NCBI RefSeq assembly: GCF_011839805.1
Contig: NZ_VWPY01000002.1
Span: 62,001-126,000, forward strand
Direction: 5' to 3'
Length of the DNA stretch: 64,000 nt
From: Kineococcus rubinsiae
GTDB taxonomy: Bacteria > Actinomycetota > Actinomycetes > Actinomycetales > Kineococcaceae
The translations under genes and the position numbers were made by a program. Below the pieces are notes generated by a model. That model searched no databases and was not told where the DNA came from. It was given only the letters and a program-made list of their open reading frames with translations. Each line of letters starts with the position of its first letter. Positions within the stretch are counted from its first letter, which is position 1. Positions 16,988 to 43,811 of the stretch are shown here, one piece after another.

Positions 16988-18235
16988 ATGGTCGACGCGG
17001 GTCCGGGCGGCAGCCCGCTGGCAGCACCCCCGACGGCGCGCGCCGCCGAGCCGGGCGTGCCCGCGCGGCCGGTGCGCCGCGACGTGGCGTCCCTGCTCGC
17101 CCCCGACCCGCTGGAGCACCGCCGCGCCGCCGCACCCGGCGCGCCCGCGGCGGCGCCTCTGGACAGCGCCCCGCCGCTGAAGGTCAACGACGTCCTCATC
17201 GCGGCCCTGAAGCTCGGGGCCTCCGACGTGCACATCACGACGGGCGCCCTGCCGACCGTGCGGCTGTCGGGCGAGCTGGAGCCGATGGAGGGCTTCGGCA
17301 AGCTCGCCGCGGCGGACCTGCAGCGCATGGTCTACGCGATCCTGACCCAGAAGCAGCGGGAGACGTTCGAGGCGAACCTCGAGCTCGACTTCGCCTACCA
17401 GGTGCCCGGGCACTCGCGCTTCCGCGTGAACGTCTACCGCCAGCGCGAGTCCGTGGGTGCGGCGTTCCGGCGCATCCCCTACGAGATCAAGCCGCTGGAG
17501 GACCTCGGTGTCCCGCCCGTCGTCGGCAGCTTCGCGGGGTTGCAGCGCGGGTTCGTCCTCGTCACGGGTCCGACGGGTTCCGGGAAGTCGACGACGCTCG
17601 CGTCGATCGTCGACCTGGCCAACCGCACCCGCAAGGACCACATCATGACGGTCGAGGACCCCATCGAGTTCCTGCACCGCCACAAGTCCTGCCTCGTCAA
17701 CCAGCGCGAGGTGGGGGAGGACACCAAGTCGTTCACGTCCGCCCTCAAGCACGTGCTGCGCCAGGACCCCGACATCATCATGGTCGGCGAGATGCGCGAC
17801 CTGGAGACCATCTCCGTCGCCCTCACCGCGGCCGAGACCGGCCACCTGGTGTTCGGCACCCTGCACACGCAGGACGCCGCCCAGACCATCGACCGCGTCA
17901 TCGACGTGTTCCCCCCGCACCAGCAGCAGCAGATCCGGGCGCAGCTCGCCGGTGCGCTGCAGGGCGTCGTGTGCCAGACGCTGTGCAAGCGCGCCGACGG
18001 CCGCGGCCGCGTCGTGGCCACCGAGGTGCTCGTGGCGACCCCTGCGATCCGCAACCTCATCCGCGAGGGCAAGACCCACCAGATCGGCTCCGCCATGCAG
18101 GCCGGCGGCCAGTTCGGCATGCACACCCTCGACCAGCACCTCGCGGAACTGGTCCGCACCCGCCAGATCACGTTCGAGCACGGCCTGGAGAAGTGCCACG
18201 CCGCCGACGAGTTCCGCCGCCTCACCGGCCGCTGA
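16988..18235 (+). CDS. pilT: Type IV pilus retraction ATPase PilT
   Basis: A 415-residue hexameric ATPase that powers pilus retraction. After about 55 disordered Pro/Ala-rich residues come the PAS-like N domain and RecA core: Walker A GPTGSGKST (about 194-202), the Asp box (TVEDPIEF), Walker B (DPDIIMVGEMRD), the His box (GHLVFGTLHT) and the PilT-specific AIRNLIREGK. The zinc tetracysteine and N1E domain of PilB are absent, so this is not the extension motor. Start at ATG 16988 behind GGAGGGGAG. It pairs with pilC 16 bases downstream and is read from a FliA-like promoter. Confidence 0.95.
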   Translation: MVDAGPGGSPLAAPPTARAAEPGVPARPVRRDVASLLAPDPLEHRRAAAPGAPAAAPLDSAPPLKVNDVLIAALKLGASDVHITTGALPTVRLSGELEPMEGFGKLAAADLQRMVYAILTQKQRETFEANLELDFAYQVPGHSRFRVNVYRQRESVGAAFRRIPYEIKPLEDLGVPPVVGSFAGLQRGFVLVTGPTGSGKSTTLASIVDLANRTRKDHIMTVEDPIEFLHRHKSCLVNQREVGEDTKSFTSALKHVLRQDPDIIMVGEMRDLETISVALTAAETGHLVFGTLHTQDAAQTIDRVIDVFPPHQQQQIRAQLAGALQGVVCQTLCKRADGRGRVVATEVLVATPAIRNLIREGKTHQIGSAMQAGGQFGMHTLDQHLAELVRTRQITFEHGLEKCHAADEFRRLTGR

Positions 18236-41433: not shown

Positions 41434-42296
41434 GCCCCCGCTCCGGCGACGGGGCGGCCCGGTTCGGCGCGCGGCTGGCCGCGGCCTCGGCCGAGCACGG
41501 CCCGCTCTGCGCGGGCATCGACCCGCACGCCCCGCTGCTCGCGGCGTGGGGCCTGACCGACGACGCCGACGGCGTCGAGCGGTTCGGCCGCACGGTCGTC
41601 GAGGCGCTGGCGGGGCACGTGGCCGCGGTGAAGCCGCAGGTGGCGTTCTTCGAGCGCCACGGCTCGCGCGGGGTGGCCGCCCTGGAGCGGGTGCTCGCCG
41701 ACGCGCGGGCGGCCGGGCTGCTGACGGTCGTCGACGCCAAGCGCGGGGACATCGGCTCGACGATGGCCGCCTACGCAGACGCGTTCGCGGGGGACTCGCC
41801 GCTCGCGGGCGACGCCGTCACGGTGTCCCCGTTCCTGGGGTTCGAGTCGCTGCGCCCCCTGCTCGACGTCGCGGCGCAGCACGGGCGGGGCGTGTTCGTC
41901 TTGGCCCTGACGTCGAACCCCGAGGGCCCGGGCGTGCAGCACGCCGTGGCGGCCGACGGCCGCTCGGTCGCCCGGTCGATCGCCGAGGCCGCGGCCGCGG
42001 AGAACGCCGGTGCCACGCTGCTGGGCGACGTCGGCCTCGTCGTGGGCGCGACGGTCGGGGCGGCCGTCGCCGACCTCGGCCTCGACCTCGCGGCCGTCAA
42101 CGGGCCGCTCCTGGCCCCCGGGGTCGGGGCGCAGGGCGCGACGGCGCAGGACCTGCGGACGGTCTTCGGCGACGCCCGCCGGCTCGTCCTGGCCACCAGC
42201 TCGCGTGAGGTCCTGGGCGCGGGCCCCGACCCGCGGGCCCTGCTCGACGCGGCCCGCCGCACCGCCGACCAGGTCCGCGCGGCCCTCGCGGACTGA
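41430..42296 (+). CDS. pyrF: Orotidine-5'-phosphate decarboxylase (long type)
   Basis: A 288-residue TIM-barrel enzyme decarboxylating OMP to UMP. The active-site cluster [17 protein letters not shown] (Asp, Lys, Asp) is complete, with [12 protein letters not shown] and [10 protein letters not shown] typical of the longer, type 2 PyrF of actinobacteria. GTG 41430 overlaps the carB stop; GTG 41421 is possible. In many actinobacteria mihF and gmk follow directly; here a palindromic terminator ends the operon instead. Confidence 0.95.
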
Positions 42297-42304
42297 CCCA
42301 CCCT

Positions 42305-42339
42305 CCGTGATCATGCAGGTAGTCCCTGCATGATCACGG
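42305..42339 (+). terminator. Perfect palindrome terminator after pyrF (dispersed palindrome copy 2)
   Basis: Arms of 15 bp (42305-42319 and 42325-42339) are exact complements around a five-base loop, nine bases after the pyrF stop. The left arm CCGTGATCATGCAGG is identical to that at 2423, and loop length is the same. Confidence 0.85.
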
Positions 42340-42397
42340 TGGGCGGGGGACCGCGGGGGTGCCGCGCCGCGGCCTGACGCGCTCCGCGCCGTGGGGC

Positions 42398-42403
42398 TAG
42401 AGT
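42398..42403 (+). promoter_or_regulatory. Probable -10 box for the MFS gene
   Basis: TAGAGT lies about 170 bases before the MFS GTG, after the pyrF terminator. It leaves a long, structured untranslated leader. Confidence 0.5.
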
Positions 42404-42433
42404 CGCCGGAGCAAGCGAACCTCTGAGCACTCT

Positions 42434-42576
42434 GCCCGGTGGAGTCGGTGCGGGACGAGCGTCCCCGGTCCGCGCCACCACTGGACGGTTCTCGGCGGGA
42501 CCACGGGGCGACTCCTCCAGGACGCCGACGACCCCGGGTGGTCCGCCGACCGGGCAGCACGAAGGACCTCTCGTGC
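42434..42576 (+). promoter_or_regulatory. Structured RNA leader of the MFS gene, possible riboswitch
   Basis: Within this leader GCCCGGT (42434-42440) pairs with ACCGGGC (42549-42555), GGAGTCG (42441-42447) with CGACTCC (42509-42515), and GGGAC/GTCCC (42452-42465) forms a small hairpin. A competing helix pairs CGGCGGGACCAC (42493-42504) with GTGGTCCGCCG (42538-42548). The start codon itself lies in a six-pair hairpin (42557-42562 with 42571-42576) whose loop holds AGGA. Some elements (ACTGG, GGGGCGACTCC, CCGCC) recall the ZTP/pfl class, but spacing differs; no class is assigned. Confidence 0.5.
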
Positions 42577-43811
42577 CCGCCTCCGTCGACGACGGCCGTC
42601 CTCCTTCCCCCTACCGGGTGCTGCTGCGCCTGCCCGGCGCCGCGCTCTTCGCCGCGACGGCCGCCGCCGGCCGCATCGGCATCGCCATGACCGGCCTGGG
42701 CCTGCTGCTCCTCGTGCGCGAGCGCAGCGGTTCCTTCGCCACCGCGGGTGCCGTGGTCGCCGCCTTCGCCGTGGCCGAGGCGCTGCTCGGCCCGCAGGTC
42801 GCCCGCCTCGTGGACCGCTGGGGACAGTCCCGCGTCCTGCCCCCGCTCGTCGCGGCGCACGCGGCCGCCGTCGCGGGCCTCCTGCTGAGCCCGGTGCCGC
42901 CGCTCGCGCTCGCGGCCCTCGCCGGCGCGACGATCCCGCAGCTCGGCGCCCTGTCCACGGCCCGGTGGGTCGCGCTGCTGCGCGGGCGACGGCTCGCGGC
43001 CTCGCTGCCGGCGGCCTTCTCGCTCGAGTCGCTCGTCAACGCCCTCGCCTACCTGGCCGGGCCCGTCCTGGTCAGCGTCCTGGCGGGGGCGGTCGACCCG
43101 GCCCTCGGCACGGGCGTCGCCGCGGGGCTCGTCGTCGCGTCCGGACTCGCCCTCGCGCTGCAGCGCAGCACCTCACCGCCCGCGGGACACCCGGCTCACC
43201 ACCCCGCCGGGGGCGGTGGCGGCCTGCTGCGGCCCGGGTTCCTCGCCGTCCTGCTGGTGAACCTGGCCATCGGCGTCCACTTCGGCGCCAGCCAGGTGGC
43301 GGTCACGGCCTTCGCCGTCGAGCGCGGGACCCCGGCGCTGGCCGGGGTCCTGTTCGGGATCTCCAGCGGGGCCGGGCTCCTCGCCGGGTGGGCGTACGGG
43401 CTGCGGCGCTGGGGCAGCGCACCCCCGCGGCAGCTGGTGGTGCTCGGCGCGGCCCTGGCCGTGGCGTGCACGGCCCTCAGCCTGAGCACCGCCTTGCCCG
43501 TCGCGGTCACCGCCGTCCTGCTCGCGGGCGCGGTCGTCCCGCCCGTCCTCGTGCTGAGCACCGTGCTGGCCGAGGCGCACGTCGACCCGCGCTCGCTGAC
43601 GCAGGCGCTGACCTGGCTGAACTCCGCCGCCGCGGGTGGCAGCGCGGGCGCGACCGCCCTCGCCGGCCTGGCCGTCGACGCCCGCGGGGCCCCGGCCGCC
43701 TTCCTCGTCAGCGTGGCCGCCGGTGCGGCGCTGGCGCTGGTCGCGGGGGTGGGCGCGCGGGTCCTCGGTCAGACTGTCGCCCTGTCGTCGAACCAGGGAG
43801 GCCGGCCGTGA
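42573..43811 (+). CDS. MFS transporter
   Basis: A 412-residue membrane protein with about twelve hydrophobic helices and a central cytoplasmic loop rich in Pro, His and Gly (STSPPAGHPAHHPAGGGGG). Between helices 2 and 3 it has a reduced form of the MFS loop (VARLVDRWGQSR). It resembles small actinobacterial efflux-type MFS proteins; the substrate cannot be told. It is preceded by an unusually long structured leader and overlaps the following gene by GTGA. The neighbourhood (end of pyr operon) gives no clear functional link. Confidence 0.85.
   Translation: MPASVDDGRPPSPYRVLLRLPGAALFAATAAAGRIGIAMTGLGLLLLVRERSGSFATAGAVVAAFAVAEALLGPQVARLVDRWGQSRVLPPLVAAHAAAVAGLLLSPVPPLALAALAGATIPQLGALSTARWVALLRGRRLAASLPAAFSLESLVNALAYLAGPVLVSVLAGAVDPALGTGVAAGLVVASGLALALQRSTSPPAGHPAHHPAGGGGGLLRPGFLAVLLVNLAIGVHFGASQVAVTAFAVERGTPALAGVLFGISSGAGLLAGWAYGLRRWGSAPPRQLVVLGAALAVACTALSLSTALPVAVTAVLLAGAVVPPVLVLSTVLAEAHVDPRSLTQALTWLNSAAAGGSAGATALAGLAVDARGAPAAFLVSVAAGAALALVAGVGARVLGQTVALSSNQGGRP

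Follow-up and report, generated by a model that had tools for sequence, protein, structure and literature searches.

A conserved structured leader RNA at a fixed place before one clade of actinomycete MFS transporter genes

A conserved, structured leader RNA stands at a fixed place in front of the genes of one clade of MFS transporters in actinomycetes, and it founds a family that is absent from Rfam 15. We analysed it in a 64,000-nt stretch of the Kineococcus rubinsiae genome (contig NZ_VWPY01000002.1, positions 62,001–126,000; hereafter the window), whose coordinates are used throughout; the features of the leader and the MFS gene all lie on the + strand. A total of 26 further copies were recovered from actinomycetes, 25 of them directly before an MFS gene of the same kind (26 of 27 with the window included). 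Judged from the compared sequences, the element appears best read as a riboswitch-like leader, still an orphan, that would act on translation of a single MFS clade. An unassigned riboswitch-like leader is also what the original prediction, made from the window alone, had proposed, and this part of it is borne out by covariation, by the association of 26 of 27 copies with the MFS gene and by the lack of an Rfam family.

The MFS leader in the window

A -10-like hexamer, TAGAGT, can be read directly at 42398–42403, and transcription would be expected to start at about 42409–42411. With that start, some 165 untranslated bases separate TAGAGT from the GTG start codon of an MFS transporter gene (42573–43811; 412 aa; MFS_1 PF07690, 49.4 bits), which the leader would control. 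The hexamer, the long untranslated stretch, the GTG and the transporter gene are all present as originally described. A Shine-Dalgarno-like AAGGA, also read directly, lies at 42562–42566 between the closing stem P1 and the start codon, and its two G residues are retained in 24 and 25 of 26 copies. We found a -10-like hexamer within the 70 nt upstream of the element in 24 of 26 copies, compared with 7.4 ± 2.1 in base-shuffled controls; the pattern was TANNNT or [TG]ANAAT (middle base not A), the second form having been picked after viewing the alignment.

Upstream of the leader are carA-carB-pyrF-like genes (carA and carB assigned by eye, pyrF by Pfam). A perfect 15-bp inverted repeat without a T run, CCGTGATCATGCAGG/CCTGCATGATCACGG, lies directly 3′ of pyrF at 42305–42339 and is probably a terminator or operator. 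We found no terminator-like site in 42250–42650, which fits with translational control of the MFS gene.

Taken alone, the window leader does not rise above chance. Its MFE was not significantly below that of shuffled sequences (z = −0.51 for 42404–42600 and −0.35 for 42408–42580), and over the two Kineococcus leaders, those of the window and of K. siccus, z ranged from −0.35 to −1.76. The complementary segments that had been quoted as strong helices do exist, but the five Watson-Crick helices with 7 bp or longer stems in the window leader are not exceptional, as shuffles contained 2.2 ± 1.6 and 14 of 150 reached five. Conservation and structure emerge from comparison.

Conservation and distribution

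Between the window and Kineococcus siccus, the leader is identical in 143 of 154 ungapped columns (42424–42578; 93%), whereas the MFS genes agree at 151 of 254 fourfold-degenerate sites (59%) and 248 of 410 third positions. The resulting 34-point excess of upstream over fourfold identity was the largest among 52 orthologue pairs in a comparison of ~0.78 Mb of the K. rubinsiae genome with 0.63 Mb of K. siccus, based on crude gene calls; the runner-up, at 29 points, was pyrF, whose upstream region is coding. In absolute identity the leader does not stand alone: besides it, eight of 56 upstream regions were 90–95% identical over ~150 nt, and some of these overlap coding sequence. Matches to carA, carB and pyrF are found on the same K. 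siccus contig as the MFS leader, and the nearest upstream gene there is a TetR gene (Pfam), where the window has pyrF. At this K. siccus locus (L064, 30–2735), a KdgT-like and an EamA-like gene (both by eye) and the TetR gene lie directly upstream of the leader.

A sensitive DNA search matched the leader to two linear plasmids of Streptomyces chartreusis (76% identity, E = 1e-14, and 78%, E = 4e-15). Both matches end shortly 5′ of annotated MFS transporter genes, whose products are 54% and 51% identical to the window protein in the main alignment. From the window, K. siccus and plasmid sequences we built a four-sequence covariance model with a preliminary structure (R2) and searched genomes independently of genes, using evenly drawn samples and strict filters. 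Matches were obtained in 4 of 394 genomes of the class (our own included), 6 of 230 in the family of genome G518 and 16 of 239 in the family of genome G602. This yielded 23 new copies at E ≤ 0.001, excluding our own genome and repeats, and 22 of the 23 lie directly before a homologue of the window MFS gene, 43–56% identical in 21 cases.

Two of these copies deserve separate mention. The well-kept element L228 (locus L251, G894:C54) precedes an MFS gene that matches in three separate pieces and is a pseudogene or an assembly error. L244 (locus L267, G1013:C1:6613472–6621588) is a truncated element that lacks P1 and has no MFS gene within ~4 kb; it is either a decayed remnant or an independent use.

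The copies span several actinomycete families, including Kineosporiaceae and, on plasmids, Streptomycetaceae. Occurrence is patchy: the two-sequence model R1 detected the element in 2 of 12 genomes from the window's family, and R2 with strict filters in 4 of 394 from the class. R1 found its own two sequences and weak matches of at most 28.7 bits, which we read as chance, as we do a weak second match, within the window, of R3, a further model of this RNA family (17707–17830; 17.5 bits, E = 0.25). R3 gave no new copy in the family of genome G439, which comprised only five genomes, and the element was not found in a pattern scan of viral contigs.

Consensus fold and covariation

We aligned 26 copies with MAFFT without reference to structure (alignment A8), leaving out the truncated L244. 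RNAalifold returned a consensus of 40 pairs, 13 of them with double changes. The refined fold consists of 41 pairs in seven helices, with 95.3% of 1058 cells paired across the 26 copies. Fifteen of the 41 pairs changed on both sides, compared with 5.6 ± 1.6 in shuffles, none of 500 having as many. Each of the seven helices has at least one double-changed pair, and when partners were slid by 1–3 columns, pairing fell to merely 41–58%. On a tree we counted 14 co-substitutions, of which 8 kept the pair; under an exchanged-partner null the corresponding figures were 4.4 and 0.87 ± 0.93 (0 of 1000 for either); without the three most divergent copies the counts were 7 and 4 against 1.6 and 0.33 (0 and 1 of 1000). 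These figures lean toward the refined fold, because the structure was partly chosen on the same data and the copies were selected with the preliminary structure of R2, which favours P1, the P3 arm and 42505–42510/42529–42534. A blind all-pairs covariation analysis of the 26 sequences gave nothing significant (best E = 4.6); substitutions were few and left it no power.

The closing stem P1 is formed by CUGCCCGGU (42432–42440) and ACCGGGCAG (42549–42557), with 98.4% of cells paired and three double-changed pairs, and it encloses two arms, P2-P3 and P4. The distance from the end of P1 to the start codon is 15 nt for 23 of the 26 copies and 14–17 nt for the whole set; we placed start codons by means of the alignment, and for the two S. 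chartreusis plasmids they coincide with the annotated ones. P2 pairs GGAGUC (42441–42446) with GGUUCU (42487–42492) in 98.7% of cells, again with three double-changed pairs. In the 26-sequence alignment this fold replaced the P2 hairpin of our first structure, GGUUCU/GGGACC. Sequestration of the Shine-Dalgarno by GGUUCU was also considered and was rejected, as by inspection it fails in the Streptomyces copies.

The P3 arm (42447–42476) continues P2 with 42447–42451/42472–42476 and then 42452–42456/42461–42465 around a tetraloop. Its two helices are 94.6% and 90.6% paired and contain three double-changed pairs, for example C-G to U-A at 42451–42472. On the 3′ side lies an unpaired, asymmetric internal loop, ACCACUGGAC (42477–42486), in which 42482–42485 (UGGA) are identical in 26 of 26 copies and 42486 in 25; it is a candidate ligand-contact region. 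The P4 arm (42494–42546) is built from 42494–42497/42544–42546, 42500–42504/42538–42542 and 42505–42510/42529–42534, paired in 99.0%, 83.8% and 98.1% of cells, respectively. The window's own P4 is one base short in the first of these helices and has one mismatch, G42508/A42531. Variants among the copies include A-U, G-C and C-G at 42503–42539, and U-A, C-G, U-G and A-U at 42508–42531.

The original prediction had described two mutually exclusive helices, a 7-bp GGAGTCG/CGACTCC and an 11-bp pairing of CGGCGG-ACCAC with GTGGTCCGCCG. The 11-bp pairing was right and lies within the supported fold, though pair 42500–42542 fails in 11 of 26 copies. The 7-bp helix was not upheld: pairing at its four outer positions reaches 59% of cells, whereas GGAGUC pairs with GGUUCU in 98.7%. 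Its three inner pairs form in 98.7% of cells, so a short UCG/CGR contact may still occur. The start codon had likewise been placed in a hairpin stem; CACGA/UCGUG is present in the window, but complementarity in the relatives is no better than the shuffled level (258 of 2000 shuffles as good).

A further pairing, GUCGGYGY/RCRCCGAC, would join 42444–42451 to 42522–42529 and may be a switching partner of the P3 helix. It forms in 90.4% of cells and has 19 double-change cells (0 of 500 shuffles); these fall in two pairs only, against 2.4 in shuffles, and probably stem from a small number of independent events.

The associated MFS clade

In a protein tree of 62 sequences, the 25 RNA-bearing MFS proteins and six others without the element made up a single clade of 31 leaves (support 0.849). 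The tree omits L228, L011, L015, L018 and L077, which were too short, and its RNA-lacking loci are a selection. Model R3 gave no match at E ≤ 0.1 in 62 loci of other MFS homologues, and R2, applied to 40 of these, gave one weak match (L078, 18.9 bits). Four Kineococcus MFS homologues that are 47–49% identical (L011, L015, L018 and L023) are preceded by a short leader of another type, common to all four and containing the inverted repeat CCGGNCCCCAGNCCGG.

The window protein matches MFS_1 alone in Pfam, has no match in NCBIfam and none in the PDB at E ≤ 0.001; the transporter is probably an exporter. We saw no recurring neighbour gene by eye at the 18 loci with a called MFS gene, where gene calls were crude, and the neighbourhood offers no clue to a ligand.

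A proposed mechanism and its rivals

We think it probable that the leader is a riboswitch in which a ligand-stabilised P1 sets translation of the MFS gene; ligand binding, the identity of the ligand, the direction and level of control, and export are what we infer here. The ~126 nt at 42432–42557, with P1 closing the P2-P3 and P4 arms, would act as a cis-regulatory leader RNA. A small molecule, probably the substrate of the transporter or a related metabolite, would bind the conserved loops and so stabilise the fold, P1 included. Because the end of P1 adjoins the Shine-Dalgarno, 15 nt upstream of the start codon, formation or melting of P1 would alter ribosome access and thereby set how much transporter is translated. 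We lean, by a little, towards the more specific proposal of a new actinomycete riboswitch class dedicated to this MFS clade, which would sense the substrate and switch translation through P1, perhaps with exchange between P3 and the GUCGGYGY/RCRCCGAC pairing. On that same slight preference, the substrate would be a toxic metabolite or a natural product for which no riboswitch is known so far.

The main rival to the riboswitch reading is that the folded leader is recognised by a regulatory protein or by a second RNA, and that this bound factor controls translation together with P1. The comparative data speak for structure and not for a ligand, and regulator genes do occur near some copies: the TetR gene in K. 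siccus, a LacI-family gene and other regulator-like genes (by eye). No cognate protein is evident, however, since no neighbour recurs at the 18 loci inspected, and a simple protein site would hardly be expected to span ~126 nt and to include several stretches of conserved unpaired bases. We regard this explanation as unlikely but worth keeping in view.

Drug-exporter genes are known targets of leader-peptide attenuation, in which a ribosome that stalls on a short peptide, under an antibiotic for instance, causes the hairpins to refold and so exposes the start site. A GTG near P2 in most copies, and an ATG in some, could open such a frame. The GTG frame is nonetheless broken by single-base indels in eight relatives (L224, L226, L228, L240, L241, L230, L245 and L225), on which grounds we rejected the leader-peptide reading, and by inspection the differences between the window and K. 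siccus leaders have no codon periodicity. A translational attenuator of this kind is improbable.

Conservation at the level of DNA, through operators, or by recent recombination might be suggested by the TetR gene that precedes the K. siccus copy and by window and K. siccus upstream regions that are often 80–93% identical. Such an origin, with no RNA function, is very hard to square with compensatory double changes in all seven helices, with a near-fixed distance to the start codon and with homologues whose genes are merely ~50% identical.

Each new class of riboswitch tells us of a small molecule that bacteria sense, and it often accounts for a transporter whose function was obscure. Should the leader be a riboswitch, identification of its ligand would probably name the substrate of the transporter as well, because the family occurs, with hardly an exception, in front of a single uncharacterised MFS clade. 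Its structure is defined and its natural variants are numerous, so a direct test can be made. It also shows that an element without significant single-sequence folding energy can prove to be a strong RNA family once relatives are available.

Comparison with known RNA families

The covariance-model search against Rfam that the original prediction had named as a check was run on the 26 aligned copies, L244 being left out, and yielded no family at the gathering threshold. Rfam 15 scans at that threshold covered the window and 14 loci; scans in E-value mode, made for K. siccus, 10 loci and again the window, gave matches below gathering only. T-box, cobalamin and every other Rfam 15 family failed to reach their gathering scores in the 26 copies. 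The lowest E-value belonged to an opposite-strand match to the animal microRNA mir-4599, which scored 28.8 bits in L232 (E = 0.0067) and 18.8 bits in the window, against a cut-off of 100. ANTAR-target RNAs consist of two adjacent hexaloop hairpins with a conserved A and G.

The leader had been likened to the ZTP (pfl) riboswitch RF01750, another bacterial 5′ leader RNA, which it recalls in short segments, ACTGG, GGGG and CCGCC, in a similar order. A ZTP variant with an insertion is refuted as a sequence family and retains next to no probability, since the RF01750 model does not match the leader at E ≤ 10, the consensus letters and the fold differ, and R3 had no match at E ≤ 1 in the 11 loci that the ZTP search supplied, while the ZTP elements of Kineococcus itself score 25–37 bits. 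Our own genome has a ZTP riboswitch before glyA (Pfam SHMT; 28.0 bits, gathering 39). ZTP riboswitches have a purine or one-carbon gene downstream, as the glyA copy does; the leader is followed by an MFS_1 gene.

Ten of 11 Kineococcus genomes had a best ZTP match of 25–37 bits; most of these matches carry long inserts and, at the loci that could be read, a glyA-like gene follows (by eye). The exception is genome G008, with a best match of a different kind (23.1 bits). These elements (L183–L190, L192 and L191, the last at G000:C24:69759–69836 on the minus strand) would be missed by automatic annotation because they score below the Rfam gathering cut-off of 39 and mostly carry long inserts.

Searches of an open-access library listed no paper whose title or opening abstract lines describe the element; later motif collections could include it, even though it matched no Rfam 15 family. 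The words MFS and efflux are absent from the main text of PMC2864571 and PMC6429828, as far as the available portions of these papers go. The sole riboswitch listed among the matches to the window leader was Guanidine-III (ykkC-III, RF01763), at 10.8 bits (cut-off 36, E = 4.5), and guanidine riboswitches had no match in K. siccus (E ≤ 10) or in 10 other loci (E ≤ 1). A table in PMC2864571 lists Guanidine-III for Actinobacteria, and guanidine riboswitches control exporters, according to a portion of PMC7736828. The yjdF RNA (RF01764) differs from the leader in that no Rfam match connects the two and in its placement in Firmicutes in the table of PMC2864571. In its mode of association it is nevertheless similar, since PMC4793209 presents it as an orphan RNA linked to a single gene whose function is unknown.
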